From the NCBI GenBank assembly GCA_002701845.1, contig NZXG01000012.1, positions 1-60,334 on the forward strand: a DNA stretch of 60,334 nt, read 5' to 3'. Made by a program: the position numbers and the translations under genes. The notes beneath the pieces were generated by a model. It had not been told where the DNA came from. It saw only the letters and a program-made list of their open reading frames with translations, and did not search any database. Every line of letters begins with the position of its first letter. Position 1 is the stretch's first letter. Source of the stretch: Pseudomonadales bacterium. GTDB lineage: Bacteria > Pseudomonadota > Gammaproteobacteria > Pseudomonadales > Ketobacteraceae. Below are positions 4,312 through 21,600 of this stretch, piece after piece.

Positions 4312-5769
4312 TCAGGGGATTTGCGCGGCTTCGGCTTCCGCCACCGCTTCAGCATAATCCGCCGGCAGCAAAAACCCGGCTTCCAAAGCGGCGTCCGCCG
4401 CTTCGGTGAATTTATTCACGTAATCTTCATGGGTGGGGTAAAGTTCTTTCAACTTTGCTTCACTGAAAGGCACCGTGTTGCCCAGGAACGGACAGGCAAA
4501 GGAGTTCACCAGGAAATTACCGGGCCCAAACAGTGAGGCATAGTTGGCGTAATTATGGGTGGCGGTAGGTACCTCCAGATGGGGCAGCCGAATGCCGCCC
4601 CGGGCATTGCCGTGCTCATCGCGCTCCACCTGCCAGTTAACGTAGGGAATCTCCGGCGCCTGCGGCGGTGCGACGCCGCTGGTGATCCAGTGCGACATAT
4701 GGGAGAGCGCGGCATTCACGGCGTAGTGCTGGGGGATTTTATTCAGGGAGTTTTTACAGCCCAGCTGGACATTGCTAAAGATGGGAATGTCCCGCTGATA
4801 TTGCGGCAACAGAAAGCTGACACCATAGTCGTCGTAGTGGGAGGCGCCGGGCAGTTCCCAGGTGCGCAGATACTCGTTGTCTTCCTGCCGCACCAGCCGG
4901 AACAGGAACATAAAAATATCCTGTTCGGTGGCGAACTGCAGCACTTTCACCGTGTTATCCGGGCGGATGTAGGCGCGGCTGGGTGACGTCAGGCTGATAC
5001 CTGCTTTGAGGGGTGCCGCCAAGGCAAAACGTGAATACAGCAGGATGCTGTCATATGACTGCCGGGCCTGCTCCTGAAACGCATTGACATAGGTGCTCAA
5101 GCGGATAGCGGACTGGGATTCCCCCACCCCCATTACTCCCTTCACGTCCAGCCCATTCAGAATAACATCGGCTTTATGGTGAACCGCCTGAGCCGCCTGG
5201 GAAAAAATATCGTAGGCAAGCCCGTCATTGATCAAATCCATGTCTCCGTAACGGGCGGAATCCCAGACCTTGAGTGCAATCACGCCCACCGCCTGAGAGG
5301 TGACCCCCACGTAGGCGTAACCTTCCCGCAGTAATTCATCGTGGGATTGGGCCCAGATGACGTCCACATCCATAAACGCAGTATTGTTAAACCACTCCAC
5401 CACGACGATCCCGTTAAAGTCCTCCGGATTCTCCGGGCGTCGTACCAGTAGTCGGGTGGCATAGGGCTTGTCGGCCTCTTCAATCCTGGTATTCCAGATG
5501 CCATCACTGCGCCAGACCCCGTCTTTCTCATAATAGTTGGCAGTGCCGGACATGCGGAACTCCTGCTCCACATACCCATAGTCGGCAAGATCCAGAATAG
5601 ATGAGATAAACGGCCGCTGTTTATTGCCGGCGTCGGCGGGAATGGGTGTGATCTCCGGGATCGGAACTACCGTTTCAGCACTTAGGTGACTGGCCCACAG
5701 TAATACCACAGCGGCAATCAGCCAGACACTCCGGCTGACCGCTGCCTGCAAACGGATAAATGAGCGCAT
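4312..5769 (-). CDS. secreted alpha/beta-hydrolase domain protein
   Basis: A 485-residue exported protein. The N-terminus has a basic start, a hydrophobic stretch (VWLIAAVVLLWASHLSA) and a probable signal peptidase site after SAE. The body resembles the large alpha/beta-hydrolase domain family (PF20091-like) with VVVEWFNNT, the nucleophile elbow GVGESQSAI around residue 217 and a late HYDDYG/HMSHW region that could hold the catalytic histidine. The elbow is GESQS rather than the classical GxSxG ending in glycine, as is common in this family. Substrate unknown. The next gene on this strand is Tat-exported PhoD, but the 240-base gap and a strong hairpin suggest separate transcripts. Confidence 0.78.
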   Translation of the reverse strand: MRSFIRLQAAVSRSVWLIAAVVLLWASHLSAETVVPIPEITPIPADAGNKQRPFISSILDLADYGYVEQEFRMSGTANYYEKDGVWRSDGIWNTRIEEADKPYATRLLVRRPENPEDFNGIVVVEWFNNTAFMDVDVIWAQSHDELLREGYAYVGVTSQAVGVIALKVWDSARYGDMDLINDGLAYDIFSQAAQAVHHKADVILNGLDVKGVMGVGESQSAIRLSTYVNAFQEQARQSYDSILLYSRFALAAPLKAGISLTSPSRAYIRPDNTVKVLQFATEQDIFMFLFRLVRQEDNEYLRTWELPGASHYDDYGVSFLLPQYQRDIPIFSNVQLGCKNSLNKIPQHYAVNAALSHMSHWITSGVAPPQAPEIPYVNWQVERDEHGNARGGIRLPHLEVPTATHNYANYASLFGPGNFLVNSFACPFLGNTVPFSEAKLKELYPTHEDYVNKFTEAADAALEAGFLLPADYAEAVAEAEAAQIP

Positions 5770-5962
5770 AGATAATCCCTCGTTATTCTTGTTATGTATT
5801 TTTGTTTTGACTTAATGCAGTTGGCTCAAGGCGCTGGAAAACAACAGGTTGTCTGCAGTAGCGTTCAACATGCTGAATGATGCTGGCTTCCGGCCGGTAT
5901 CGTCGTTGATATTGTTAAACGAGTAATAAGGGAGTCGCAACCTTAAGTTGCTTGTGGCTACG

Positions 5963-5994
5963 CAACAGCAACCGGAATCTTCCGGTTGCTGTTG
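5963..5994. terminator. 15-bp perfect stem-loop downstream of phoD
   Basis: CAACAGCAACCGGAA pairs exactly with TTCCGGTTGCTGTTG across a two-base loop. It sits 17 bases after the stop of the minus-strand PhoD gene. No run of T follows on either strand, so it is a terminator-like or transcript-protecting hairpin rather than a classical intrinsic terminator. Confidence 0.55.
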
Positions 5995-6011
5995 GCGCTA
6001 GGCCGACGCTT

Positions 6012-7694
6012 TCAGGCATCCAGAATGATTCGGTTGCCGGCACCCGGCAACACTTTAATGTCTTTGGCGTAATCCTCCAGTAGCTGGTAAGTCTCGGATT
6101 TTACGGTGTTCACGAAACGGTATTCGCCCCGGCATTCGGTGGCACTGAAGCGTGCCACCAGATAACCCCGATGCTGCAGATTGGCGTAATGCAGGGGTTC
6201 AATAATCTGGGTAACACCAGCGGAGAGCGCGTCCGGATCTTCCGCCGGGAAAAAGGCTTCCAGCCCGGGAGAGGACACGCTGCTGGTGGCCAGTTCCACG
6301 CCCACATCCACCCCCTGCACGGTTTGCAGATTGTTGGCCCAGGCGTTGTGAGTGTCCCCCGCGAGTACCACCAGGTTTTTATCCAAACTGAGAGCGGTTT
6401 CCAGGACAATTTCCCGTTCCACAAAATAGCCGTCCCAGGCATCCAGGTTATAGGGAATAAAAGGGGCCTGCAAAATGGCAAGCTGTTCCGGGCTGAGGGC
6501 ACCAGGGTTGGTTTGCGCCAGGTAGGCCAGTTGCTGGTAGTCGCTGAAGCTGATTTGCTGAGTGGCCACAGGCGCCGGCAGGTTCATGCGTCCCATCAGC
6601 ACCTGTTGACCCAGCACCTGCCAGGTGGCCTGTGATTGCGCCATGCGTTGCTGTAACCACTGGCGCTGTTCCAATCCCAGCAGGGTACGCTCTGGATTGG
6701 TGAGATCCGCCTGAAAGGCGGCGGCATCGAAGCCTCCGCTGCTGGTGAAGTAGTTGGCATAATTCAATTGCTGGTCGCGACCGATGAGGCGGGTGTCCAG
6801 CATGTAGAGATCCAGCAGCTCACCGATGCTGAACTGGCGATAGATGGAAAGACGGTCGCCGTCCTCAGGTTCGCGCACCGGAATCCATTCGTAGTATGCC
6901 TGCAGTGCCTGAGCCCGGCGCGCAAAGAAATCCCCTTCGCCGGGGTTATGATTTTCCGCCCCTTCGCGCCAGGTATCATTGGTAACCTCATGATCGTCCC
7001 AGACACAGATAAAGCTGTGTCGGCCATGGGCAGCCTGCAGTTGCGGATCGCTGCGATATTGGGCGTAGCGGGTGCGGTAGTCGCTCAGAGTGAGCAATTC
7101 GGTGGCGGGCTGGGAAACCCGATCCAGGGCGGTGGCGTCTTCCGAGGCATAACCGTCGGCACCGTATTCGTAGATATAATCCCCCAGGTGCAGCACCGCG
7201 TGGAGGTCGTCCCGGGCGGCGATTTCTCCATAGACGTGAAAGTACCCGGCGGGGTAATTGGAACAGGACACCACCGCCATGTTGAATTCACTCACCGGCC
7301 CCACCGGCAACGTGCGCATGCGACCCACCGGGGAACGGTGATTCTGTGAATAGAAGCAGTAGTAGTACGTCTGACCCGGGTGCAGGCCGGTCACATCCAG
7401 CTTGATGGTATAGTCCCGACTGGCGTCGGTGGTGGCCATGCCGGAGCCCACCACCTGTTGACACTGGGCATCCGTGGCCACCAGCCACAGGATCTTGTGC
7501 TGGCCGTTGAAGGCCTGGTATGGCGTGATCCGGGTCCAGATTACCACCCGGTCAGACAGTGGGTCGCCACTGGCCACACCGTGATTGAAGCGGGCCCTTG
7601 AGCAGCCGGTAAGTAGCCCGGCCGAGGCCAGTGCCGTGGTGCCAATGGCAACGGTTTTGATAAACCGGCGCCGGGTGATCGGTGTCATTTGCAT
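6012..7694 (-). CDS. phoD: PhoD-family alkaline phosphatase, Tat-exported lipoprotein
   Basis: A 560-residue secreted phosphoesterase that releases phosphate from organic esters outside the cytoplasm. The N-terminus carries a twin-arginine motif TRRRFIK (residues 7-13), a hydrophobic core and a lipobox LTGC with Cys31, so it is probably a Tat-exported lipoprotein. PhoD-like metal-binding signatures follow: FNHGVASGDPLSDRVVIWTR at the start of the mature protein, LHLGDYIYEYG, CVWDDHEVTND and VVLAGDTHNAW. PhoD enzymes bind Ca2+ and Fe3+. It is followed by a strong hairpin and preceded by opgD, also Tat-dependent. I saw no convincing Pho box upstream. Two starts six bases apart (MQM, MTP) are possible. 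Confidence 0.92.
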   Translation of the reverse strand: MQMTPITRRRFIKTVAIGTTALASAGLLTGCSRARFNHGVASGDPLSDRVVIWTRITPYQAFNGQHKILWLVATDAQCQQVVGSGMATTDASRDYTIKLDVTGLHPGQTYYYCFYSQNHRSPVGRMRTLPVGPVSEFNMAVVSCSNYPAGYFHVYGEIAARDDLHAVLHLGDYIYEYGADGYASEDATALDRVSQPATELLTLSDYRTRYAQYRSDPQLQAAHGRHSFICVWDDHEVTNDTWREGAENHNPGEGDFFARRAQALQAYYEWIPVREPEDGDRLSIYRQFSIGELLDLYMLDTRLIGRDQQLNYANYFTSSGGFDAAAFQADLTNPERTLLGLEQRQWLQQRMAQSQATWQVLGQQVLMGRMNLPAPVATQQISFSDYQQLAYLAQTNPGALSPEQLAILQAPFIPYNLDAWDGYFVEREIVLETALSLDKNLVVLAGDTHNAWANNLQTVQGVDVGVELATSSVSSPGLEAFFPAEDPDALSAGVTQIIEPLHYANLQHRGYLVARFSATECRGEYRFVNTVKSETYQLLEDYAKDIKVLPGAGNRIILDA

Positions 7695-9565: not shown

Positions 9566-9982
9566 ATGTTTCAGGGTTCCTTGCAAGATCGCATTCTGAT
9601 CAGAGAGCGATATGGTGCATACAGTGACGCCGTGTTCCGGCAGGATGTGGATGCCTGGCTGGCAAATTACAGCGAGGAAGGTGTTTGGGAAATTCATGGC
9701 AAAGCGCACCGCGGTAAAACCGAGCTGCGAGCCAAGTGGGAGTCTCTGTGGGCGATGTTGGACAAAATGGCGTTCTTCACCGAGATTGGTGCAATCGCGA
9801 TCGAGGGTGATAGCGCCAGTGCCCGTTCCTATTGCAGGGAGATTGTCTCTTTAAAAAATGGGCAAATCATGAAAGTGGTGGGCTTTTATGAGGATGAGTT
9901 GATCAGGCGAAACGACAACTGGCGGTTTTCCAAAAGACACTATACTCCATTACTGAACGAATCAGCTCCAGCAACGGCTTAG
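9566..9982 (+). CDS. NTF2-like / SnoaL-type small protein
   Basis: A protein of about 138 residues of the nuclear transport factor 2-like fold. The pattern RERYGAYSDAVFRQDVDAWLANYSEEGVW (read here only in parts: ERYGAYSDA, then DAWLANYSEEGVWEIHG) and the late IMKVVGFYEDEL and NWRFSKRHYTPL strands are typical of SnoaL-like proteins, which are isomerases, ring-hydroxylating dioxygenase subunits or orphan ligand binders. I chose the ATG at 9566 because GGAG stands nine bases upstream; ATGs at 9551 and 9530 are also in frame. The stop codon lies in the loop of a 12-bp hairpin. No partner gene suggests a pathway. Confidence 0.75.
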   Translation: MFQGSLQDRILIRERYGAYSDAVFRQDVDAWLANYSEEGVWEIHGKAHRGKTELRAKWESLWAMLDKMAFFTEIGAIAIEGDSASARSYCREIVSLKNGQIMKVVGFYEDELIRRNDNWRFSKRHYTPLLNESAPATA

Positions 9983-9997
9983 TGTCCGTTGCTGGAG
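9966..9997. terminator. stem-loop enclosing the NTF2-like gene's stop codon
   Basis: CTCCAGCAACGG pairs exactly with CCGTTGCTGGAG across an eight-base loop that contains the TAG stop (9980-9982). The convergent repeat-protein gene ends at 10041, so the hairpin could serve as a bidirectional end. There is no T-run. Confidence 0.5.
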
Positions 9998-10040
9998 TGA
10001 TTCGAGCCAAACCACAGGGCCGGCTTATTTCAGTCAGCCA

Positions 10041-13000
10041 CTAATTGGCGACCGCGCTGGGCCCCGGAGCCTCACCGTAAAACGCCCGCAGGATTGCCAG
10101 ATCTCCGAAGTTGACAAAGCCGTCCTGATTGAAGTCTTCGTCCAGACCGGATCCACTGCTAAAGAAAGCGGATCGGAGCAGGTTGAAGTCGAGGAAGTCA
10201 ACAATGCCATCATTGTTCAGGTCGGGATCGCAGCGGTTGCCAAAGCCGTCACCATCGGTATCTTCCTGATTGGGGTTGGCAAAGCCCAGGCAGTTGTCTT
10301 CGTTGTCACCCACTCCGTCTTCGTCGATATCGTCAACGGTGGCCATGCCTTCGCCAATGCCCACCACATCAGTCGCGGAGGATCGCGCGGTGCTGTCTTC
10401 CACCCAGGCGATAAACGGAATCTGGGAGCCTTCCACCACGCTGCTGGCAATCACTGGTGGCAGAGACACAGTCACGCTGCCGCCGGCGGCCAGCGCACCC
10501 AGAGGCCAGGTTATGGTTTCGGTGGCTTCGCAGGAATTGCCGGCCCTACCGATATTGTCGCAATCGGCATTATCACCGATAGTGTCTTCGGCAAGGTCAT
10601 TCAGGCCAGTGGGATAATACATCCGCAACACCACATCCTGCCGCTCGAAACTGCTGTTGTTGGTGACGGTGGCGGAAACGGTCAGGGGCTCGCCGGGTAA
10701 TGCGCTGCCGGGGCTGGCCTGTACCAGTACCGTCAGCGGCGCTTCGGGTTCGATGCGGGAGGTTTCGTCGGCGAGGGTCATGGCGCCACTGCTGTTGCTG
10801 AGGCTGGCTTCGGCTTTGATCAGCGTACCGTAACCAATGGCGGCTGGAACCGCGAAGGTGGCGCTGAGTTCGCCCACATGTCCCGGTTGGACCGTGCCTA
10901 AGGGCCACTGTACTTCATCACCCACCTGGGTGCCACCGCCGGTGGCGGAGACAAAGCTGAGACCTTCCGGCACCGGCAGCTTCAGAACCACACCGCTGGC
11001 CGCGGAAGAGCTGCCGCTGTAGCCCCAGTTGGCCACATAAGTGATGTCGTCCCCCGGCGTGACGGGATCAGTACCGTCTTCTGTCAGTTCCAGTTCCAGA
11101 TCGCGGCTGCCGTTGACCGCCAGGGCCTCATGGGCCAGAGTGATCTCGCCGGAGCTATCGACCACCTGGGCATTCAGTTCAATAATGTCTCCCGCGGCTA
11201 CGGCGGCATTCACCACTGGTGGCAGGCGCACGGTGACGCCCCGGCCAGCTGTTATGGTGTCCAGGTTCCAGGTGAACAGTTCCGTGGCCTCACAGCTATT
11301 TCCAGCGTTCACCGTGTTTAGGCAGAACCCACCGTCGCTCATGGTAGCTTCGGACAGGTTATTGAGCCCCACTGGATGCCGCATTTGCAGTACCACATCA
11401 GAGCGATCAAAGAAGCTGTGGTTGGTGACCGTTAAGGCCAGGTCAATGCGTTCGCCGGGTGTTGCCGGTGTATTATCCGCTGCAATCGCCAGCTGCAGAC
11501 CGGTATCGGTTTCCATGCGGGTGACTTCATCGCCACGGGTAAGCTGTCCGTTGCTGCTCTCCAGCATGGCCTCGGATTTGATCAGGGAACCTGGCTGGAT
11601 GCTACCGTCGGCCACAAAACTGACCCGCTGCTCTCCGGTTTGCCCCGGCACCAGTGTTCCCAGATTCCACTGCACCTGATTGCCCACCAGTGATCCACCG
11701 CTGTCGGCGGTGCTGAATGACAGCCCTTCCGGCACCGGCAGTGACAGAACGGTGTTGGCGGCCACGGCGGAGGTGGCGCTATGGCCCCAGCTGAGTTGAT
11801 AGCTCACACTGCCGCCGGGTTGGGCCGGGTCCTGGGTCAACTCGCTCAACGCCAGTTCCAGAGTACGGTCATTAACAACGGCAACCGCTTCGCTGGCGCC
11901 GGTTTCCGCACCGGTGCTGTCCACCGCATAGGCATCCATCATCACCCATTCCCCAGGCAGTGCCGTTAGCGCTGGGGGCAGCGTCAGGGTAATGCCCCGG
12001 CCGGCGGGGATCTGATCAAAATTCCAGATCAGCCGCTCGGTTACTTCACAGACGTTGCCATTGGAAACACTATTGATGCAATTCCCAGCATTCGTGATTC
12101 TGTTTTCCGCCAGATTGGCAAACCCTACGGGAAAGCGCATGGCCACTACCACATCAGAGCGATCGAAGGGGCTGGCGTTGGAAATGGTTAACGCCAACTG
12201 AATCCGTTCTCCGGTTTCGGCGGGGTTGGCGTTCGCTTCGATGGCCAGTCGCAGTCCGGTGTCCGCCTCCAGCCGGGAAATGACTCCGGCGCGGGTGGCC
12301 GGACCACTGCCAGCCTGCAGGCTGGCTTCCGTGGTGATGGATCGCCCCAGCGGCAGGTTACCTGCAGTCTGCAGCACAACCCGGGCTTCTCCCACCTGGC
12401 CGGGCACCAGAGTACCCAGGGGCCATTGTACTTCGTTGCCCACCAGCGTGCCGCCGTTGTCCGCAGACACAAAGCTAAGCCCCTGGGGTATGGGTAGGCT
12501 CAGGTTGACATTGTTGGCGGCGCTGGAGGTGGCGCTGTAACCCCAGTTTAACTGGTAGATCGCTTCGGTGCCGGGTGAAACCGGATGCTGATTCACAGGC
12601 TGAATACTGAGCTCAAGCTGGCGATCACCCACAACGAGCACGCTATCACTGGCACTCGCCACATCGCTGGAATTATCCGTGGCCTCGGCATTGAAAATGA
12701 TTTCTGTACCGGGGGTTACGCTGGCGGCCACTTGAGGTGGTAGGTCCACGGTTCGACTGCGGCCGGCGGCGATGGGGCCCAGACTCCAGACCAGAGTCTC
12801 CGTGGCTTCGCAAAGGTTACCGCTGGAGACAGTGTTGATACAGTCACCCGGACCACTGATGGCCGCTTCTCTCAGATTATTCAATCCCAGCGGATACTCC
12901 ATTTGAATCTGAACACCGGAACGCTCGAAGCTGTCCGTGTTACTGACAGTCAGGGACAGGTTTATTGTTTCCCCCGGCTCGGCGGGGCTGGGATTGGCAC

Positions 13001-13094
13001 TGAGGGAGAGTTCCAACGCGGCGTTGGCCGCGCCGGCTGCCGAACACAGCATTGCTGCCGCGGTCAGCCGTTGAAAGAAGCGTTTCGTTTTCAT
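10041..13094 (-). CDS. secreted DUF11-like repeat protein with C-terminal dockerin
   Basis: A 1017-residue exported protein when read from ATG 13094, which has GGAGGT about ten bases upstream; the frame is open further but that start is poor. Residues 1-26 are a Sec signal peptide (ending GAANA). Residues about 27-925 hold three and a half tandem units of roughly 254 residues, each pairing a DUF11-like beta domain with two conserved cysteines (CINTVSSGNLCEATE and relatives) and a second beta domain (LNWGYSATSSAA and relatives). Then comes a thrombospondin type 3-like Ca2+ segment (DIDEDGVGDNEDNC) and a type I dockerin-like pair of loops (DLNNDGIVDFLDFNLL and DFNQDGFVNFGDLAIL). It has no C-terminal sorting helix. 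The gene immediately upstream encodes a cohesin-domain protein, suggesting a binding pair. Substrate unknown. Confidence 0.85.
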   Translation of the reverse strand: MKTKRFFQRLTAAAMLCSAAGAANAALELSLSANPSPAEPGETINLSLTVSNTDSFERSGVQIQMEYPLGLNNLREAAISGPGDCINTVSSGNLCEATETLVWSLGPIAAGRSRTVDLPPQVAASVTPGTEIIFNAEATDNSSDVASASDSVLVVGDRQLELSIQPVNQHPVSPGTEAIYQLNWGYSATSSAANNVNLSLPIPQGLSFVSADNGGTLVGNEVQWPLGTLVPGQVGEARVVLQTAGNLPLGRSITTEASLQAGSGPATRAGVISRLEADTGLRLAIEANANPAETGERIQLALTISNASPFDRSDVVVAMRFPVGFANLAENRITNAGNCINSVSNGNVCEVTERLIWNFDQIPAGRGITLTLPPALTALPGEWVMMDAYAVDSTGAETGASEAVAVVNDRTLELALSELTQDPAQPGGSVSYQLSWGHSATSAVAANTVLSLPVPEGLSFSTADSGGSLVGNQVQWNLGTLVPGQTGEQRVSFVADGSIQPGSLIKSEAMLESSNGQLTRGDEVTRMETDTGLQLAIAADNTPATPGERIDLALTVTNHSFFDRSDVVLQMRHPVGLNNLSEATMSDGGFCLNTVNAGNSCEATELFTWNLDTITAGRGVTVRLPPVVNAAVAAGDIIELNAQVVDSSGEITLAHEALAVNGSRDLELELTEDGTDPVTPGDDITYVANWGYSGSSSAASGVVLKLPVPEGLSFVSATGGGTQVGDEVQWPLGTVQPGHVGELSATFAVPAAIGYGTLIKAEASLSNSSGAMTLADETSRIEPEAPLTVLVQASPGSALPGEPLTVSATVTNNSSFERQDVVLRMYYPTGLNDLAEDTIGDNADCDNIGRAGNSCEATETITWPLGALAAGGSVTVSLPPVIASSVVEGSQIPFIAWVEDSTARSSATDVVGIGEGMATVDDIDEDGVGDNEDNCLGFANPNQEDTDGDGFGNRCDPDLNNDGIVDFLDFNLLRSAFFSSGSGLDEDFNQDGFVNFGDLAILRAFYGEAPGPSAVAN
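10320..13016 (-). repeat. 3.5 tandem ~760-bp coding repeats
   Basis: Within the dockerin protein gene, units of about 254 codons repeat with approximate boundaries 13016-12255, 12254-11493, 11492-10731 and a half unit to about 10320. Each complete unit repeats the order: beta domain with the paired cysteines, then the GYS/GHS beta domain ending in (L/M)E(A/T)DTG or a variant. Boundaries are estimated by eye from the protein. Confidence 0.7.
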
Positions 13095-13195
13095 TGCAGT
13101 GTACCTCCATGTTGACAATAAGACGCAGGCAGCCGCGACTGGCTGGCATTGCGAAGCCAGCGTCGTGTGATAAAGATCGGTTGTGGTTGGGGTCG

Positions 13196-13822
13196 TTAAG
13201 TACGTCGTCGTGCCAGCAGGCCCAGCCCGGTAAGGCCGCTCAGCATCATCCATACCGCCGCCGGCAGGGGAATGGGACTGATCTCCACCTCCCGGCCGCT
13301 GTAACTAACGACTTGCGGCTCGAGCGTAAAGCTGCTGTAGAACTCACCCACCAGAGGATCTTCGGTGGCCTCCAGGCCAAATTGCGCGAAGCCCACCTGA
13401 TCGGCAATGAATGTGAGCGAGCCCACCAGTGAAGGGCCGGTAAGACCAATCAGATCGCCAAAGGCCGCACCGATTATTTTGCCGTTGTTATCGTCCACCA
13501 ACACCTGCTGCAGTGGCGGAGATTGGGGACTGTCGTCCCGGCTCAGCAATGGGTCACTGCCCAGTTGCGGCGATAGAATAAAAGACTCGCTGACGTAGGA
13601 CACCAGAGCCGGATCGAACAAAATATCGAATCCGCCGCCGATGGTGGGTTCGTCGGTGAAGTCCATGTAGATATCCATTTGAAAACTGTTGCCCTGGATG
13701 ATACTGGCCCCAAGATCGGTAGGCTCAATCCAGATGCTCGCAGCCTGGGTGGCGCCGACCGTGCCGCACAAAAGAGCCGCGGAAAGAGAGTGCTTGATTG
13801 ATTTTCCCCACATAGAATTCAT
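13196..13822 (-). CDS. cohesin-domain protein with VPLPA-type C-terminal sorting signal
   Basis: A 208-residue exported protein. After a signal peptide (cleavage near TQAAS), residues about 28-180 resemble a cohesin: GNSFQMDIYMDF, GGGFDILFDPALVSYVS, IIGAAFGDL and SLVGSLTFIAD follow the beta-sandwich pattern seen in scaffoldins. The C-terminus is a PEP-CTERM-class signal: IPLPAAVWMMLSG, a hydrophobic helix and the basic tail ARRRT, as used by exosortases of the VPLPA type. It should be exported, processed and held at the surface. It lies directly upstream of the dockerin-bearing repeat protein with a 101-base gap on the same strand. An alternative ATG at 13813 has better spacing to the GGAG site. 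Confidence 0.82.
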   Translation of the reverse strand: MNSMWGKSIKHSLSAALLCGTVGATQAASIWIEPTDLGASIIQGNSFQMDIYMDFTDEPTIGGGFDILFDPALVSYVSESFILSPQLGSDPLLSRDDSPQSPPLQQVLVDDNNGKIIGAAFGDLIGLTGPSLVGSLTFIADQVGFAQFGLEATEDPLVGEFYSSFTLEPQVVSYSGREVEISPIPLPAAVWMMLSGLTGLGLLARRRT

Positions 13823-14187
13823 GCTCCATTTGAATTCAACTCAGAACTGAACAATAAGCGTTGAAAGAGTAATCAATGCCGGTCCCCAAAGACTGAATGT
13901 TAGGCCGGCACAATTTTCGCTTGCATGGAAAGCCTCTGGCTTTTCCCTATAAACGACTAAGAATCTACGTGGAACAAATTTAACTTAGGTTATTCTTTTA
14001 TGAATTTTTTATTCATGGAAAATGACATCGCGATCATGTTTTGATCGGCGGCGAAGGCGACAATGGTCACAGGCCTGCTGAGTATTAATACCCGTGGCGC
14101 TGTGTGGTACTGACTTCCGGTTTTCCGTTGATCTGTCAGGCTGTGATAGCCAACTGAGATTGGTGCTGCCTTAAATTTATCAACGGA
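13823..14187. other. AT-rich intergenic region
   Basis: A 365-base divergent gap between the cohesin gene and the neprosin pro-protein gene. It is clearly richer in A+T than its neighbours and contains a short inverted repeat ATGAAT/ATTCAT around 14000 and a 6-bp one (CGATCA/TGATCG) at 14031-14047. It presumably holds promoters for both directions, but I cannot place boxes with confidence. Confidence 0.5.
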
Positions 14188-14750
14188 GTGAGTGCTATAA
14201 ATAAGAACTATCTGTGGCTATTGTTGCTCGCGGCCACATCGGCTTGGGCGGAGGTGAAGGAGTTTATACCCTACGAGAATTTCCTCGCCCAAAACGAAAC
14301 CGCAAACTATCAGCAATATGCTGATCTGCCCGCCACCAAAGTGGCCAGCCGCGAAGCCTTTGCTGAGATGAAATCCCACGTGCTGCAGACTTACTACAAA
14401 GTGGAGGTGGACCACAGCTTTGTGTTTCCCGGAGCCGGCCATGTGGACTGCATCAATCTTTATACCCAGCCCGGGCTGCGCCGTGGCGATGGTTTTGACA
14501 AGCCGGCGGTGCACCCAGTGCCCGCCGGTTTGATGAGGATCAAAGCAAACCCATGAGCGAAGCCGTGCCCACCATGCTAAGGGGGAACGAGCTGGATGAC
14601 TTTGGCAATCCGCAGGCTTGCCGCCAGGGATTTATTCCCATGGCGCGGGTCGAGCTGGCGGATATGGTGAAGTTCGAGAGCCTGGCGGCATTCTTCAACA
14701 AATATGGCAAGCGCGGTGAAGCGGGTGCGCCTGTGGCGGCGAAACAATAA
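14188..14750 (+). pseudogene. disrupted neprosin pro-domain-like secreted protein
   Basis: Two reading frames together give one protein: frame one (from GTG 14188) runs through a signal peptide (NYLWLLLLAATSAWA) and a neprosin pro-domain-like stretch (FAEMKSHVLQTYYKVEVDHS, then VDCINLYTQPGLRRGDG) to a stop at 14556. The next frame, read upstream of ATG 14553, continues naturally as RFDEDQSKPMSEAVP and then DDFGNPQACRQGFIPMARVEL. The shift matches loss of one base near 14505-14535. In addition, the codon at the ideal distance from GGAG (14185-14188) is ATA at 14197 where ATG is expected; the only start in frame, GTG 14188, overlaps the GGAG itself. Known bacterial neprosin-family proteins carry this pro-segment ahead of the catalytic domain; here it is separate. 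Sequencing error remains possible for the frameshift. Confidence 0.7.
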
Positions 14751-14761
14751 GGAGGTGTGCC

Positions 14762-15568
14762 ATGAACTCTATCGAATGGAAATCCGGAAAAGCATTGGTG
14801 AGCGGTGTTGTATTCCTTGTTGCCGGTTTACTGCAGGGCTGTGGTGGCGGTGATCACCACTGGGCCTGGGCCGAGCAGTCGGTGAATAATCACGGCGGCG
14901 ATTCCCGCCTCAATGTGTGGAAGCCGGACTCCGATCCCGGGGTGTTTTCACTGTCCCAGCACTGGTATACCCGGGGCAGTGGTGACAATAAGCAAACGGT
15001 GGAAGGGGGGTGGCAGGTATACCCTGGAAAATACGGTACCAGCAATCCGGTGCTTTTCATTTATTACACGCCGGATAATTACGCCAGCGGTTGTTACAAC
15101 CTGGACTGCAGTGGTTTTGTTCAGGTCAATAACAGTTGGGTGCTGGGGGGCAGCCTGTTACCCACCAGTGTGAATGGTGGTACGCAGTATATCATTCGCA
15201 TGCAATGGCAATTGTACGAGGGTAACTGGTGGCTGTTCGTGCAGGGTAGTGGGGACTACGTGGCCGTGGGCTACTATCCGGCCTCCGCCTACAACAATGG
15301 CCCCATTACCGATTATGCCAGCTGGATCAAGTACGGAGGCGAGGTAGTGGAAAACGGTTCCGGTAACGCCGGTGAGATGGGCAGTGGCGGCTGGAGCCGT
15401 GCGGCCTATCAGCGAACGGTGTACTACATAGATACCAGCCATGTCAGCCGCTGGGCCAATATGACGTCCCATCAGCCCACGTCGTCCTGTTACACCATTG
15501 ATCTGAATAACAATGCCAGCGGTTCCTGGGCCAACTATTTCTATTTTGGCGGCCCCGGCTGCCCTTAA
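14762..15568 (+). CDS. neprosin-family glutamic peptidase, lipoprotein
   Basis: A 268-residue protein with a hydrophobic leader and lipobox LLQGC (Cys27), then a neprosin domain (formerly DUF239). The plant enzyme neprosin cleaves after proline using two glutamates; candidate equivalents here are Glu81 in TVEGGWQVYP and Glu194 in KYGGEVVENG. Other family features are WAWAEQSV, LFIYYTPDNY, CYNLDCSGFVQ and the end segment YFYFGGPGC. Cysteines at 111, 116 and near the C-terminus could form disulfides. Eleven bases separate it from the damaged pro-domain gene and an AGGAGG site precedes ATG 14762. A clear intrinsic terminator follows. Likely role: extracellular protein degradation. If its pro-protein is truly lost, folding or control may be affected. 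Confidence 0.82.
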   Translation: MNSIEWKSGKALVSGVVFLVAGLLQGCGGGDHHWAWAEQSVNNHGGDSRLNVWKPDSDPGVFSLSQHWYTRGSGDNKQTVEGGWQVYPGKYGTSNPVLFIYYTPDNYASGCYNLDCSGFVQVNNSWVLGGSLLPTSVNGGTQYIIRMQWQLYEGNWWLFVQGSGDYVAVGYYPASAYNNGPITDYASWIKYGGEVVENGSGNAGEMGSGGWSRAAYQRTVYYIDTSHVSRWANMTSHQPTSSCYTIDLNNNASGSWANYFYFGGPGCP

Positions 15569-16011: not shown

Positions 16012-16965
16012 TTACGATCCGCGACGTCCCTGCAGCCCGAACAGGCCGCTCAGGACCAGTAGTCCCCACAAGGGTAGAAATGGAATGTCCTCAGCTACCT
16101 CTTGCGGCGGGCTTAGTACATAGAGTGTCGGGTTACTGCCGTTTTCAGCCACAATATAGATGGTACCCCAAGGATCGATGGTAACGCCTTCTGCAGAGCT
16201 GGAGAGGCCACTGAGATCGAACTGGCCGAGCAGGTTACCATTGCGATCAACCTTCATTAACAGACTGGACTCCTGACTGACCAATAGCAAATTATCAGCT
16301 TCAGCGCTGTCGGTATAATCGCTGACCGTGGCCAGCACCTGAACGTCGGCGATATCGGCAACCCCGAGAATTGGGGTAAATAGACTGTTGGTTTGCGCAG
16401 TACCGTTATTGAAGTCCAGTTGGTTCAGGTTCACTTCTTGCGGCAGTTTCTCTTTCACTGTGATAAAGCTGTCATCGCGGGGATCATAGCTGATACCTTC
16501 CAGGCCGATGTTATCCACGAATCCCCCCAGATCCACCGGCGTCAGGTTGTTCTTAAACAGAAAGCCACCGGCCTGATAATTGATGTAGTAGGCATCGCGA
16601 TTCCGCTCTTCCACCAGCACTAGCCCACCGTTGCCCACGTAGGTGAGGCCTTCAGGGTCATTAAAGCCGATAATGGCCATTTTGCTGATCTCCTCCCCCT
16701 CCAGAGTCACCTCCAGCAGATTGCCGCCTTCGTCGCCCACCACAAACAGGGTATTGTTGTCCCAGTTATAAGTGACAGCGGAAACCTCATGAGCGTTGAG
16801 GGTAGCGGGATTCTGGCTGAAATCGCCGGGTGGCAGCAGATGGGTGGCAGTGTGTTGATACTGGTCCAAGTCCAGCGCTGGAATTGCGGCCTGTGCCGGC
16901 ATTGAAAATATCAGCATTAGTATGACCGTAATTCCGCCGGTCGCCGTCAGAGATCTCATACGCAT
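16012..16965 (-). CDS. SdiA-regulated-like beta-propeller protein with IPTLxxWG-type signal
   Basis: A 317-residue exported protein. A Sec signal peptide (ending MPAQAA) leads into a domain resembling the SdiA-regulated family, a propeller-type fold: EVSAVTYNWDNNTLFVVGDE, FNDPEGLTYVGNGGLVLVEE, LEGISYDPRDDSF and SAEGVTIDPWGTIYIV. The last 25 residues are DIPFLPLWGLLVLSGLFGLQ followed by GRRGS, a close match to the IPTLxxWG-CTERM pattern recognised by exosortase H: motif, hydrophobic helix, basic end. It is therefore a probable client of the exosortase encoded at 25.2 kb. ATG codons at 16965 and 16959 are both possible starts. Function of the propeller is unknown. Confidence 0.82.
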   Translation of the reverse strand: MRMRSLTATGGITVILMLIFSMPAQAAIPALDLDQYQHTATHLLPPGDFSQNPATLNAHEVSAVTYNWDNNTLFVVGDEGGNLLEVTLEGEEISKMAIIGFNDPEGLTYVGNGGLVLVEERNRDAYYINYQAGGFLFKNNLTPVDLGGFVDNIGLEGISYDPRDDSFITVKEKLPQEVNLNQLDFNNGTAQTNSLFTPILGVADIADVQVLATVSDYTDSAEADNLLLVSQESSLLMKVDRNGNLLGQFDLSGLSSSAEGVTIDPWGTIYIVAENGSNPTLYVLSPPQEVAEDIPFLPLWGLLVLSGLFGLQGRRGS

Positions 16966-17005
16966 GGGAGTGATTTCGTCGGGTAAGTTCGTCTGGTGAA
17001 AGGTT

Positions 17006-17037
17006 CGCCGCGCCCGCGATGGAATTGGGGCGCGGCG
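17006..17037 (-). terminator. hairpin after the lamin-tail protein gene
   Basis: CGCCGCGCCC pairs exactly with GGGCGCGGCG across a 12-base loop, 13 bases after the minus-strand stop. Only a weak T-containing stretch follows. Confidence 0.55.
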
Positions 17038-17049
17038 GAGCAGGCTGGT

Positions 17050-17718
17050 TTACGCGCGTCGGCCCAGGCGGGCGCCAAACAGGCCTGCCAAGCCGGAGAT
17101 GAACAACCACGCGGCAGCGGGCAAAGGCACCGGATTGAACTGGCCGGGATTACCCAGGTCACCGCTTATGGAAAAATAGGAATTGAAGGAATCACCCACT
17201 GCGGAGCTGACCCAGGCGCTCACGTCATTGGCACCCAGTGCCGCCAGCGTACCGGGGTTGCCACTGACTTCGTCGGTGCGGATGCTGCCGGGGAAATCCT
17301 CATCGCTGTAAGTCAGCACGTCTGCCAAAGGGAAAGTGCTGCCATTAAAGCTTTCGTAAATGTTGATTTCGTCGCTACGGCCAATGTTGTTGGAAACGCC
17401 GCCCAGCACTCTTACCGCGCCATCCAGGCCCCAGTCGGTGCGGAAATCGGCGGCATTGGCTTCAGTCAGAATTACAGATTCGCCATCAGCGACTAAGCCA
17501 AACCCGCTCAGATCAAAGGTTCCAGGAGTGCGGGAGTCATCGTCATAACTCCAGCCGCTGAAGTCTACCGCTGATCCTGAAAGGTTGGTCAACTCAATAA
17601 ATTCGTCACCGTTGCCCTTGTACATCCATTCTGTGATGTAGATTCCGGCTGCATTGGCTTGGGCTGCACCCAGCACCAGTGTTAGGGTGGCTGCGCTCGT
17701 CAATGTTTTGAGTTTCAT
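17050..17718 (-). CDS. lamin-tail-domain protein with VPLPA-type sorting signal
   Basis: A 222-residue exported protein. The signal peptide ends near ANAAG. The mature part starts IYITEWMYKGNGDEFIELTN and continues FSGWSYDDDSRTPGTF and DGESVILTEANAADF, the recognisable pattern of the lamin tail domain, a small beta-sandwich common in secreted bacterial proteins and often next to nucleases. The C-terminus PVPLPAAAWLFISGLAGLFG plus ARLGRRA is a textbook VPLPA-type PEP-CTERM signal. It probably reaches the surface through an exosortase other than XrtH. A GGGGG-rich ribosome site precedes the ATG. A hairpin follows, so it is likely monocistronic. Confidence 0.85.
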   Translation of the reverse strand: MKLKTLTSAATLTLVLGAAQANAAGIYITEWMYKGNGDEFIELTNLSGSAVDFSGWSYDDDSRTPGTFDLSGFGLVADGESVILTEANAADFRTDWGLDGAVRVLGGVSNNIGRSDEINIYESFNGSTFPLADVLTYSDEDFPGSIRTDEVSGNPGTLAALGANDVSAWVSSAVGDSFNSYFSISGDLGNPGQFNPVPLPAAAWLFISGLAGLFGARLGRRA

Positions 17719-17917
17719 GGTATTCCCCCGAGGTTGTATGGTTTGACGCAGCTTAGAAACATAGCTGTACAGGGTGACAGTGCCATTACTTGAATATGAC
17801 GTTTGCCAGCAGCTTATGTTAAGCGTTTATTGCTAAAGGTCAGTTGTGGGCGGGAGCTGAACCGAATCCGGTAGGCGTTTTTATTATGGTCATTGCTGTT
17901 ACTCGATCGATGTGATC

Positions 17918-17948
17918 CCCGCACTCACGTGGTTGCTGCGAGTGCGGG
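17918..17948 (-). terminator. hairpin after the second VPLPA-type gene
   Basis: CCCGCACTC pairs exactly with GAGTGCGGG across a 13-base loop, 17 bases after the stop of the gene at 17965. No T-run follows. It probably ends the transcript that begins with the 1384-residue protein gene. Confidence 0.5.
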
Positions 17949-17964
17949 AATCTGTGCCAGCGGC

Positions 17965-18615
17965 TTAGGCCCGCTGGCGCAGTCGAACGCCGAACACACC
18001 GGCCAGGCCAGTGATAAACAACCAGGCAGCCGCCGGCAGGGGTACCGGCGAAGTGATCATGCCCGCGGAGCTGGTGACGGACAGGTCGTCGATAAGAATA
18101 GCACCGGTGGGAGCGTCGCCACCGTCATAGAAGCGGGACTCCACCACCAGGCCATCACGCTCGCCGCCGTTGGAGTCGAAGGTCCAGGTGTATTCCAGAT
18201 AGGACCAGCCGCTGCCATCGGAGAAGGTGGAATTGCCACCGGCGGACCCGGCGTAGGATTCAATATCGGTGTCGTCAGTGGTGTAGTGGCCCCAGATGCG
18301 CGCGGAAGGCGCGGCGCCGGCGGACACGTCGTAAGCCCAGAAGCCGGCAGTCACTGTATCACCGTCGGCCAGGCCGGTAACCCAGGCCACATAGCCCTGG
18401 GGGGTGCCGGTATTCTGGTCGGACAGATCTTCGATCAGCAGTGCCCGGTTGCCGGAATAGGCCAGCGCATCGGTATTGGAATACTGCATGCCGTCGTCGT
18501 TAAAGCTGCCCAGGACAGTACCGACACCGTCTTCCCAGCCGTAGTTGAGTGAAGCGGCATTGGCAATGCCAGCGACGCCGGTGAGCAGGGTTGCTACAGC
18601 AATTTTCTTAAACAT
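17965..18615 (-). CDS. secreted beta-rich protein with VPLPA-type sorting signal
   Basis: A 216-residue exported protein of unknown function. After the signal peptide (ending GIANAAS) it shows a jelly-roll-like composition: LNYGWEDGVGTVLGSF, DALAYSGNRALLIED, YVAWVTGLADGDTVTAGFWA and GAILIDDLSV resemble carbohydrate-binding or choice-of-anchor domains, but I cannot name a family. The C-terminus SPVPLPAAAWLFITGLAGVF plus RLRQRA closely matches that of the lamin-tail protein, so both should be processed by the same exosortase. An AGGAG site precedes the ATG. It starts only 16 bases after the stop of the 1384-residue protein gene, so the two are probably co-transcribed although they carry different sorting signals. 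Confidence 0.8.
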   Translation of the reverse strand: MFKKIAVATLLTGVAGIANAASLNYGWEDGVGTVLGSFNDDGMQYSNTDALAYSGNRALLIEDLSDQNTGTPQGYVAWVTGLADGDTVTAGFWAYDVSAGAAPSARIWGHYTTDDTDIESYAGSAGGNSTFSDGSGWSYLEYTWTFDSNGGERDGLVVESRFYDGGDAPTGAILIDDLSVTSSAGMITSPVPLPAAAWLFITGLAGVFGVRLRQRA

Positions 18616-18631
18616 GGTTTTCTCCTGTTGG

Positions 18632-21600
18632 TCATCGTGTGGTTTGCTTTTTCTTGCCCATACCTAATCCCCCCAGGCCGGCCATCAGTAGCCCCAAGGC
18701 CCACCAGGGCAGGAAAGGAATGTCTTCGTCCCGACCCGGCAACAGATCTTCATTGAGGTTGGGGTTGGTATTCAGTTGGTATTCCTGGAGATTGGTTTTG
18801 CCGTCGCTGTCGTTATCCAGATCGGCGTCGGCAGGATTCAGCGGATCCAGACCATAGGCTTGCTCCCACACATCCGGCATTTGATCGTTGTCGTCGTCCG
18901 GATCGCACAGGTCACCAATAAAGTCATGCTCCACGTCGGACTGATCTGAGTTAGGGAGGTCGGCGCAGTTGTCCAGGTCATCACTGATACCGTCGTTATC
19001 CGTATCCGGGATCAGGTTCAGATCCAGCCACACCAGACGATGGTCGGAGGAATCACAACTGGGGCCGGAGCCGCTGCAGGAGCCGGTGAGGGAGCGCAGG
19101 GGATCCCCCACCCGGGGCCAGAAAATACCGCAGGAAAGGCCGGGGTCTGCCGGGTCACAGGCGGACATGCTGATGTCGAGACCGGCAGCGGAAGGCAGTA
19201 CGTAGTCCGCCCGCAGACCAAAGTCGGCGGTGGCATTAACGCCGGAGGTGGCGCCACTGCCGCCGCTGGCGGCGGGGCTGAAGCTGGTGTCCACCAGCGG
19301 GTTGTTCAGCAGTTGCAGAATGGCGTTGCTGAAGCTGTCACCGTTGACGGGGTCAGCGTTCTGGTCCCCCATGATAACGAAACGCTGCCCGTATCCCAGG
19401 CAACCCGGGTTGCCGTTATCGTCGACAATATAACAGTTGTCGCCGCCGCTGATGTAATCACTCCAGAACCGGATCTCATCATGATTGCGGCGGCCGTTGC
19501 GGTCCTCGTTGCCATCAAACACCGGTGGCGTGGGATGGCTGGCCAGCACGTGCACGGTTTCGCCGTCCACGATCACCGGAATATCCCAGTGGCTTTTGGA
19601 GGACAGCCGGAAAATCTCCAGCTCGTCCGGCTGGTAAAACCCGTTATTGATATTACCCACATAGGGCAGCACGGCACCGGGCATATCGCTCCAGACAAAA
19701 CGGCGGAAAGTGCGAATGCCGTCGGTGTCGATGGGATATTTGGATAGGATGGCCATGCCGAAGGCGCCGGGATAATTGCCAAAGCCGAAAGCGTCTTCGG
19801 GGTCGTCGTTGGCGCTGCCAGCGTCACAACCAAAGGCGGGGTCGTTGAAATCGCAGTCGGGTTCGCCTTCGCTTTCCGGTTGCACGCCGGTGTTGGAAAT
19901 GTCCACGTAATAGTAGGGATAGGTCACCGGGTTTTGCCCGTTCTGCGCAACCTGCAGGTAGTTATTGCGAAACGCGTTGATGGCGATCTCGGCGCTGTCG
20001 TAATCAAACTCATTGAGCAATACCACATCCGGATTCACCCGCTGAATGATTTCTGCCACACCCTGGGCCTGGGGGTCCGGGGTGGGCTGGGTCAGCGCGT
20101 TTACCAGGGCGCCGGCGCCACGGTCTGCCAGCAGCACATTAAAGGTGGCGATACGCAACTGATCCGGGTCGGCTTTGGCGGGCACTGAGTCCGATACGGT
20201 CACCACCGGTTCCCCCACCACGATGTCATCCACCGCCCAGCGGCGCGCGCTGAAGCCCCCATCCCGGTAGCGGAATGCAACGCAGATGGTCTGACCACTA
20301 TAGGGGGTCAGGTCAAATTCTGGATAGTCGGTCCAAGTGCCCTCGGCAGCGCCGGCGGTGAGGTTCTGGTCCAGCAGGGTCCATTGGGCCGGATTTAAAT
20401 CCCCGGCGCTATAGGTACCACTCAGACTGCAATTGGGGTTCAGCAACAGTTGGAAATTATCGGAGGCGGGAGACTGGCTGGTGGTGCCCTGCCAGTAATA
20501 ACGGAACGCGAGCGCTTCATCCGTGGCCGGGGACGGAATGCTGATGGCGGGGGACACCAACCAGTCATCGGCACTGACGAAAGCGTTGTCGTTGTCGATG
20601 GTGGCGGCGTTACTGCCGGCCACGGCGGCCACCTGCCAGATGCCGGAGCTGGACACATTCACCGCCTGCCAGTCCCCCAGTCCGGATTCAAAGTTTTCTG
20701 ACAGGGAGGGGGAATCCAGTTGTTCCCCGTCCACCACCAGCACGTTGTCCACCTCCCACACCCGGCCATCGCTGGACAGGCGGCCGGTGGAGAGATACTG
20801 GAAGCCGATGTAGACATTGTCCCGTTCCGCCACCGGGATGGCACTGGCCTGAATCACCACCGGGCCTGATGGGGTCAGGGTATAACCCCCGGTGGCGGGC
20901 AGATCAAAAGCCAGTGGCTGCCAGGTGGCGGAGCCGGGATCGGCATTGACCGTAGGGTTGTAATCGCTGGAATAGAACAGGAATAACTCCGGGCCACCGA
21001 AGTTGTAATCGGAATCAAAGGTCAGGGTAATGGCGTCCCGGGTACTCAGATCCTGGGGCGGCAGTATCATCCAGTCATTGCAGATTTCGTTGGGATCGGC
21101 AGCGGCGGCGTTATAGCCGTTCATGCTGGCCTTCTGGCCGTTATACACATACCAGTTGGCGGTGCTGGTGTCGTTACAGCCCAGGTCGTAGGTGGTAATC
21201 ACCCCGAATTCACCGGTATCGAAACCCCCGCTGAAGCTGTCGTCCTCACTGAAATTGGCGAAGAACAGGGCCCCTTCCGGCGCCTCCTCGGCGTCCGGGT
21301 CGGAAACGACGCCGGCATCCGCTTTCACCGTGGGTGGGCTTTGCATGGGCAGCACCAGGGGGCCATTACCGTCAAAGGGTTGCCACAGATCCAGGCCCGC
21401 CGGCAGTGCATAGGGGTTGGCATCCTGCAGTGACTGACTCAGTTCCGCCACCTCCTGCTCCACGCCGTTGGGATAGGAATTGCTCTCAAAGCGGACGGTG
21501 CGGACGAACACATTGGCGGGGTTCACCTGCACCAGTTTGAATTGCCAGAACGAATTGCTGACCAGGGTCCAGGCTTTGTCATCGTCCTTGGGCCGTTTCG

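Follow-up and report, generated by a model that had tools for sequence, protein, structure and literature searches.

The window, a stretch of 60,334 nucleotides spanning positions 1 to 60,334 of contig NZXG01000012.1 (assembly GCA_002701845.1) from a Pseudomonadales bacterium of the Ketobacteraceae, carries on its minus strand two neighbouring genes for secreted proteins, one cohesin-like and the other dockerin-bearing. Read along that strand, a 208-amino-acid (aa) open reading frame (ORF) at 13196-13822 is followed by a gap of 101 base pairs (bp) and then by a 1017-aa ORF at 10041-13094. The first-pass annotation of this DNA had described the shorter product as a cohesin-like protein with a VPLPA-type end and the longer one as a repeat protein with type I dockerin loops at its C-terminus and no sorting signal; both descriptions were borne out, and the two genes and their features were confirmed as follows (A4 and A2 denote the cohesin-subtype and dockerin-subtype profiles used below).

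13196..13822, minus strand: cohesin-like, exosortase-tailed protein of 208 aa, the putative anchored socket (ORF list; leave-window-out hidden Markov model (HMM); TIGR03370)
13739..13822, minus strand: its N-terminal Sec-type signal peptide, residues ~1-28 (by eye, from a basic N-terminus, a hydrophobic core and an AxA-like site)
13298..13744, minus strand: its cohesin module, profile A4 positions 1-139 (A4 genome search, E = 2.0e-38, with the window sequence included in A4)
13202..13273, minus strand: its VPLPA-CTERM sorting tail, with an IPLPAAVWMM motif, a hydrophobic stretch and RRR (TIGR03370 over cut-off)
13095..13195, minus strand: intergenic gap of 101 bp, containing a weak 5-pair terminator-like match at 13124-13137 and, ahead of the ATG, a GGAGG-like site (sequence and terminator scan)
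10041..13094, minus strand: secreted protein of 1017 aa with a DUF11 rod, a thrombospondin type 3 (TSP3) linker and a dockerin, the putative plug-bearing partner (ORF list, Pfam, sequence, repeat alignment)
13017..13094, minus strand: its N-terminal Sec-type signal peptide, residues ~1-26 (by eye)
10344..13016, minus strand: its rod, with seven DUF11-type domains in the order (A-B)x3-A (PF01345, 1e-39, 7 stretches; repeat alignment)
10233..10343, minus strand: its TSP3-like Ca2+ linker (PF02412, 18.1 bits, below the cut-off of 25; present in 7/7 rows of A2)
10044..10232, minus strand: its C-terminal type I dockerin, with two DxNxDGxxNxxD-type loops and a PGPSA end (PF00404; A2, E = 6.5e-40, with its own row in A2)

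For the 1017-aa ORF the start codon is ATG 13094, preceded by the GGAGG-like site; a longer in-frame alternative in the ORF list, of 1070 aa, overlaps the cohesin gene. Two terminator-like sites were observed in 9900-14200, against 4.2 expected from shuffles, and co-transcription of the two genes is plausible from the sequence. The tail of the 208-aa protein scored 34.3 bits with TIGR03370 (VPLPA-CTERM; cut-off 25.35) and 16.6 bits with the Pfam PEP-CTERM model, below its cut-off of 20.7, and three TIGR02602 exosortase matches, one of them partial, passed the cut-off in the window's genome; a curated tail score and an exosortase in the same genome thus mark this protein as a predicted PEP-CTERM/VPLPA-CTERM exosortase substrate. 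C58, C69 and the ORFs at 17080 and 17974 of the window contig were rejected as further relatives: the 208-aa query matches them only at C-terminal positions 117-207, mostly sorting tail, and none of the four matches A4 at E≤0.001 in the genome search.

The cohesin fold is a nine-strand jelly roll. The Pfam cohesin model PF00963 did not match the 208-aa protein at E≤10 (hmmscan), nor anything in the window's genome at E≤0.001; a phmmer search of the single sequence against solved structures returned 0 matches; and an AlphaFold2 model from a 2-row alignment was of low confidence, with a mean predicted local distance difference test (pLDDT) score of 35.6. As none of these gave support, the assignment rests on family profiles. 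The family was found by reading, in other genomes, the genes next to related dockerins, and 15 cohesin-like domains were aligned, including those of the window and of L001, the first relative found and the only one in the contig search. An HMM of the 14 domains other than the window's matched one of the 452 ORFs of the window, that of the 208-aa protein (E = 5.5e-15); with its two nearest kin removed the match was at E = 4.1e-9, and with L001 removed too, at E = 3.5e-6. Ten family members without the window matched solved structures at E = 3.2e-8 (5g5d) and 1.5e-7 (3l8q), all 7 matches at E≤0.01 being cellulosomal scaffoldin or cohesin entries; when the window was included, 11 of 12 matches at E≤10 were scaffoldin or cohesin, and the twelfth (E 2.3) was not. 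The family of the 208-aa protein is thus homologous to solved cohesins at the profile level. Profile-profile comparison also joined the window's cohesin subtype to a second set of seven cohesins (95.6% probability, E = 1.2e-8), a set that matched solved cohesins weakly (best E = 0.018) and of which several members pass PF00963. Within the family, G371:C112 (G numbers denote genomes) lay over the PF00963 cut-off (24.6 versus 24.1 bits) and G192:C14 under it (17.8), and an NCBIfam scan of nine cohesin relatives named no cohesin family.

The 1017-aa protein is a secreted protein with tandem PF01345 domains, as expected of a DUF11 surface-repeat protein, and scored 49.1 bits with TIGR01451 (cut-off 24). 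The A units of its rod are 33-52% identical to each other and the B units 47-53%, and every A unit has a pair of Cys spaced 10 residues apart. Its dockerin scored 20.6 bits with Dockerin_1 (PF00404) in hmmscan, below the cut-off of 22.9, and 25.4 in the genome scan, above it. Both Ca2+ loops look complete by eye (DLNNDGIVDFLD and DFNQDGFVNFGD), giving the duplicated pair that characterizes type I dockerins. A7, the dockerin family with the window included, matched solved cellulosomal dockerins at a best E of 7.3e-11 (two half matches) and a next of 8e-9; EF-hand proteins appear among the weaker of its 37 rows at E≤1. No sorting-tail family was found on this protein at E≤10 in the NCBIfam scan, its C-terminal end being EAPGPSAVAN, and no enzyme domain in the Pfam scan. 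A possible second dockerin in the genome, at C24 (PF00404, E = 0.355), was rejected: the ORF reads as ClpP by eye and lies beside trigger-factor-like and ClpX-like ORFs. On these grounds, the cohesin and dockerin identities of the two proteins are supported at the profile level.

In the window's genome there was one A4 cohesin-subtype match and, among the matches listed, one A2 dockerin-subtype match, and their genes adjoin. Dockerin-subtype genomes elsewhere were chosen from the listed A2 matches by E≤1e-18 and a match reaching column 80 or beyond, the weaker listed rows being mostly TSP3-only; among the matches listed, full-length A2 (TSP3-dockerin) matches occurred in 17 of 369 genomes of the class and 6 of 293 of the order, 22 distinct genomes. 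Because A2 and A4 had been built partly from pairs found by adjacency, we used a leave-one-genome-out search of the fetched regions, in which the cohesin profile was rebuilt for each genome left out and A2 was kept as is, together with Fisher tests without the training genomes. A cohesin ORF adjoined the dockerin gene in 12 of the 22 listed dockerin-subtype genomes (the window's, G371, G192, G107, G445, G463, G515, G156, G149, G330, G396 and G267), which span 10 genera in 10 families; leaving a genome out is a weaker control for G371/G156 and G463/G515, since the members of each couple share a genus. The gene-order survey across a sample of genomes that the first-pass annotation had proposed thus recovered the same adjacency, and an adjacent pair with an exosortase-type tail, which that annotation had called unusual, is instead recurrent. 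Read along the strand, the cohesin gene precedes the dockerin gene in the window, G149, G515, G330 and G267 and follows it in G192, G107, G445 and G396; in G371 and G156 the cohesin is flanked by two dockerin genes, and in G463 the genes are divergent. This varied order with constant proximity favours selection on the pair over one inherited operon.

The two families were also associated across genomes. In the class, A4 matched 13 of 369 genomes at E≤1e-9, a cut set after the list was seen, and 11 of these were among the 17 listed dockerin genomes (Fisher 2.5e-15); leaving out the seven training genomes gave 4 of 6 (p = 4.4e-6), the four being two related couples, G077/G224 of one genus and G146/G267 of one family. 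At the looser cut of E≤0.001, given alongside, the corresponding counts were 11 of 19 (2.2e-12) and 4 of 12 (1.3e-4). In the order, the genomes with cohesin matches at E<1e-20 (G000, G445, G463 and G515) were all dockerin genomes, but all four had contributed rows to A4; of those with weaker matches (1e-5 to 1e-8), G036 is a dockerin genome, and G552 and G655 are not. The identity matrices of cohesins and dockerins, compared for 12 pairs in 11 genomes, were correlated (Mantel r 0.40, p 0.004), a correlation confounded by shared ancestry.

The proteins that adjoin cohesins elsewhere are diverse. In a Pfam scan of ten dockerin-subtype proteins beside cohesins, we found two subtilases, two multicopper oxidases, one glycoside hydrolase family 5 (GH5) cellulase, one LVIVD repeat protein, one immunoglobulin (Ig)/cadherin-like protein and three with TSP3 and dockerin alone; 4 of the 10 passed the PF00404 cut-off unaided. 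These otherwise unrelated domains make the socket appear general and the cargo variable. A second subtype was surveyed in 40 fetched regions, covering part of the PF00963 matches, which at E≤0.1 occur in 35 of the 369 genomes of the class; a motif script, Pfam or inspection by eye served to recognise its dockerins. These regions yielded nine small proteins that combine a cohesin with an exosortase-like tail. The script picked out seven of them, and L100 and L106 were added by eye; L108 was left out for its ambiguous tail, and L103 belongs to the window's subtype. Seven of the nine had a dockerin-bearing neighbour (L097, L100, L101, L102, L103, L106 and L121, not L111 or L114). At L101, which is the place of L005 and comes from the window's own family, the socket lies beside an endonuclease/exonuclease/phosphatase-domain protein whose dockerin scored 12.2 bits, below 22.9.

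Individual loci showed further arrangements. In G515 (L184, 153-1892), the GH5 cellulase carries its TSP3-dockerin near the N-terminus and lies beside a cohesin of the kind closest to the window's, possibly a one-enzyme, one-socket arrangement. In G445, one polypeptide (L182, 2700-5510) joins multicopper oxidase domains to both a cohesin and a dockerin, with a separate cohesin adjoining at 5532-6053; it looks like a small scaffoldin of this system, and at a second locus of the same genome (L181, 4138-5185) cohesin ORFs lie beside a dockerin protein. G192 has two tandem pairs (L105, 7095-10572 and 11285-13446), each a dockerin protein over the PF00404 cut-off (49 and 57 bits) with a PEP-CTERM protein of 177-180 aa, the body of which may be a third, divergent socket type. 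The cohesins at L195 (5164-5781) and L103 (6249-6875) match the flocculation-associated PEP-CTERM protein PepA of NCBIfam beyond the tail (30.1 and 25.0 bits versus an 80-bit cut-off), and PepA itself might hold a cohesin-like domain. The L195 dockerin scored 19.9 bits with NF041540, below 29. G224 and G077 (L230, 4079-4924, and L231, 1-615) have window-like cohesins with the motif PTLGGGxDIxFD, the open frames of which are truncated at the contig end, and no exosortase tail is visible in them.

Other genes of the window lie near the pair. Four further secreted proteins are encoded in a row on the minus strand at 16012-22786, and one gene is on the plus strand; the Neprosin family, to which the latter belongs, is known mainly from plants.

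14762-15568, plus strand: Neprosin-domain protein (PF03080, 1.9e-48)
16012-16965, minus strand: SdiA-regulated-like protein with an IPFLPLW-type C-terminal end
17050-17718, minus strand: lamin-tail-domain protein with a VPLPA-like tail
17965-18615, minus strand: VPLPA-tailed protein with no Pfam match
18632-22786, minus strand: metallophosphatase and endonuclease/exonuclease/phosphatase protein of 1384 aa, with TSP3-like repeats and an IPFLPWW-type end

We propose that the two proteins are probably a matched pair, in which an exosortase-anchored socket with a single cohesin holds a dockerin-tagged DUF11 rod at the cell surface; the binding of dockerin to cohesin, its Ca2+ dependence, the exosortase processing, the surface location and the adhesive role of the rod are inferred. 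The 208-aa protein would be exported, one of the exosortases of the genome would act on its VPLPA-CTERM tail, and the processed protein would stay at the outer surface and present its cohesin. The 1017-aa protein would be exported without an anchor of its own, and its C-terminal dockerin, with two Ca2+ ions, would plug into that cohesin. Docking would tether the rod, with its seven Ig-like (DUF11) domains, to the cell, where it would most likely be an adhesive or matrix fibre; this role is our best guess, as the window's rod protein has no catalytic domain. The first-pass annotation had read the locus as an anchored scaffold with a docked repeat protein outside any cellulosome; profiles and adjacency make this the best reading, although "scaffold" overstates an anchor with one cohesin. 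A cellulosome, which would call for a multi-cohesin scaffoldin and several glycoside hydrolases bearing dockerins, was rejected, the genome having one cohesin match, one dockerin over the cut-off and no PF00963 match (E≤0.001), and the partner having no enzyme domain. As kindred sockets adjoin dockerin-tagged proteases, oxidases and other proteins, the module may work as a display socket of general use. The chances appear about even that it is one instance of a general plug-and-socket display in exosortase-bearing Gram-negative bacteria of the window's class, in which one-cohesin anchors of at least two subtypes serve varied dockerin-tagged neighbours; a protein would then reach the surface by a borrowed anchor rather than its own, the cargo being adhesive rods, proteases, oxidases, nucleases and hydrolases.

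A number of observations weigh against the matched pair and its generality. The leave-one-genome-out search gave no supported neighbouring cohesin in 10 of the 22 listed dockerin-subtype genomes: among these, G146 and G224 have a cohesin ~8 kb off on the same contig, G077 has one on another contig, the G240 region is cut by the contig end, and G063, G121, G065, G493 and G036 showed no cohesin in the fetched regions. A gene of G143 (L199:2743-3414) that is cohesin-like by eye was missed by the leave-one-out HMM and left uncounted. The genomes are not wholly independent, G371/G156, G463/G515 and G077/G224 being congeneric and G146/G267 of one family. Dockerins that pass PF00404 had no adjoining cohesin in the fetched regions at L113, L115, L116, L117, L118 and L119, of which L113 (genome G009) belongs to the window's own family; cohesins had no dockerin partner in G154, G177, L114, L111 and L001; and G371 holds the unpaired cohesin L114 and the unpaired dockerins L116 and L117 in addition to its pair. 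Of nine cohesins from other genomes, three passed a curated NCBIfam tail cut-off (L195, L104:6576 and L121); the remaining scanned cohesins mostly have exosortase-like ends by eye, with none at L104:7140. In G515, G463 and G396 the cohesin has an atypical or truncated end, G192 and G445 also hold untailed cohesins, and the exosortase search covered the window's own genome alone. Within the genus the pair appears accessory, since five congeners gave no cohesin-subtype match in the A4 search. The congeners also gave no full-length dockerin match among the matches listed, three of the five having weak PF00404 matches under the cut-off; the pair's DNA had no match in the five, and its flanks scarcely matched either, so that no insertion site was visible. 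Type I dockerins have paired helices following their loops; a single-sequence model of the dockerin end was of low confidence as well (mean pLDDT 44.0, one short helix).

These observations bear on three other explanations. TSP3 repeats serve as Ca2+ stalks, and the two domains could be genuine without binding each other, the dockerin being the Ca2+-stiffened end of a TSP3 stalk and the cohesin an ordinary Ig-like domain of a PEP-CTERM protein, brought together in a cluster of surface genes. The four secreted proteins nearby, with their exosortase-like or other C-terminal anchors, are in keeping with such a cluster, as are the ten dockerin genomes without a supported neighbouring cohesin and the cohesins without a dockerin neighbour; we nevertheless regard it as unlikely, given the adjacency in 12 of 22 genomes in varied order, the association of the families across the class, the unrelated nature of the partners' other domains, and dockerin loops that look intact in a family matching solved cellulosomal dockerins. 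The cohesin bound by the dockerin might instead belong to another cell nearby or to the exopolysaccharide matrix, so that the pair would act as cell-cell glue and not in self-display, an idea to which we give little credence. The extra untailed cohesins of G192 and G445 would fit it, and a PEP-CTERM gene has been tied to floc formation in one strain, according to the available text of PMC9850573; the anatomy of the proteins gives no preference for intercellular binding over docking on one and the same cell. Finally, the 208-aa protein could be no cohesin but an unrelated beta-sandwich PEP-CTERM protein, in favour of which stand the PF00963 miss, the empty single-sequence structure search and the poor model (mean pLDDT 35.6). 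This is very improbable in view of the window-free match to solved cohesins (3.2e-8), the profile-profile result (95.6%, E 1.2e-8) and the passage of G371:C112 over the PF00963 cut-off.

The putative matched pair resembles the cellulosomal pairs (cohesins 5g5d and 3l8q; dockerins 2y3n, 2mte and 1daq) in that the same two module families are recognised by profile and in that a two-loop Ca2+ dockerin stands at the C-terminus of a secreted protein. Unlike those pairs, its anchor has one cohesin and an exosortase-type tail, with no multi-cohesin scaffoldin or carbohydrate-binding module seen, and its partner has no enzyme domain. Peer et al. 2009 reportedly described single cohesins and dockerins outside cellulosomes in the three domains of life, with no exosortase-anchored adjacent pair. 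The 'planctosome' is a hypothetical cohesin/dockerin peptidase complex of Planctomycetes (available text of PMC6461901); like the window pair, it is a non-cellulosomal complex with a proposed surface location and an anchoring protein that contains TSP3 repeats, whereas its anchor is a lamin-tail-domain protein with an adaptor, and the terms 'CTERM' and 'exosortase' are absent from the main text of that paper. For the Gram-negative marine bacterium Saccharophagus degradans, which has no classical cellulosome, two dockerin-like and six cohesin-like ORFs are reported, and, unlike the window, no pairing, adjacency or exosortase anchoring is described in the available text (PMC2386152). The curated NCBIfam model NF041540 (GC-type dockerin domain-anchored protein) is named for anchoring, and was not reported for the 1017-aa protein in the NCBIfam scan (E≤10). 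A literature text search, with most subscription papers outside its scope, returned no paper joining dockerin or 'cohesin domain' with PEP-CTERM; dockerin and exosortase occurred together in one paper, a review of methane archaea.

Most likely, the pair exemplifies a recurrent arrangement, a cohesin socket with an exosortase anchor and a dockerin-tagged partner, and is a variation on the known non-cellulosomal cohesin/dockerin theme. The function of cohesins and dockerins outside cellulosomes is described as not known in the available text of PMC5244752, a paper that cites Peer et al. 2009. Here, the adjoining genes supply each dockerin with a candidate partner and an anchoring route, and with candidate partners drawn from gene pairs, the role of non-cellulosomal cohesins becomes a simple question of pairwise binding. 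If our proposal is true, new cohesin-dockerin pairs would become available for protein engineering, and the exosortase system would gain a non-covalent route for displaying proteins at the cell surface.

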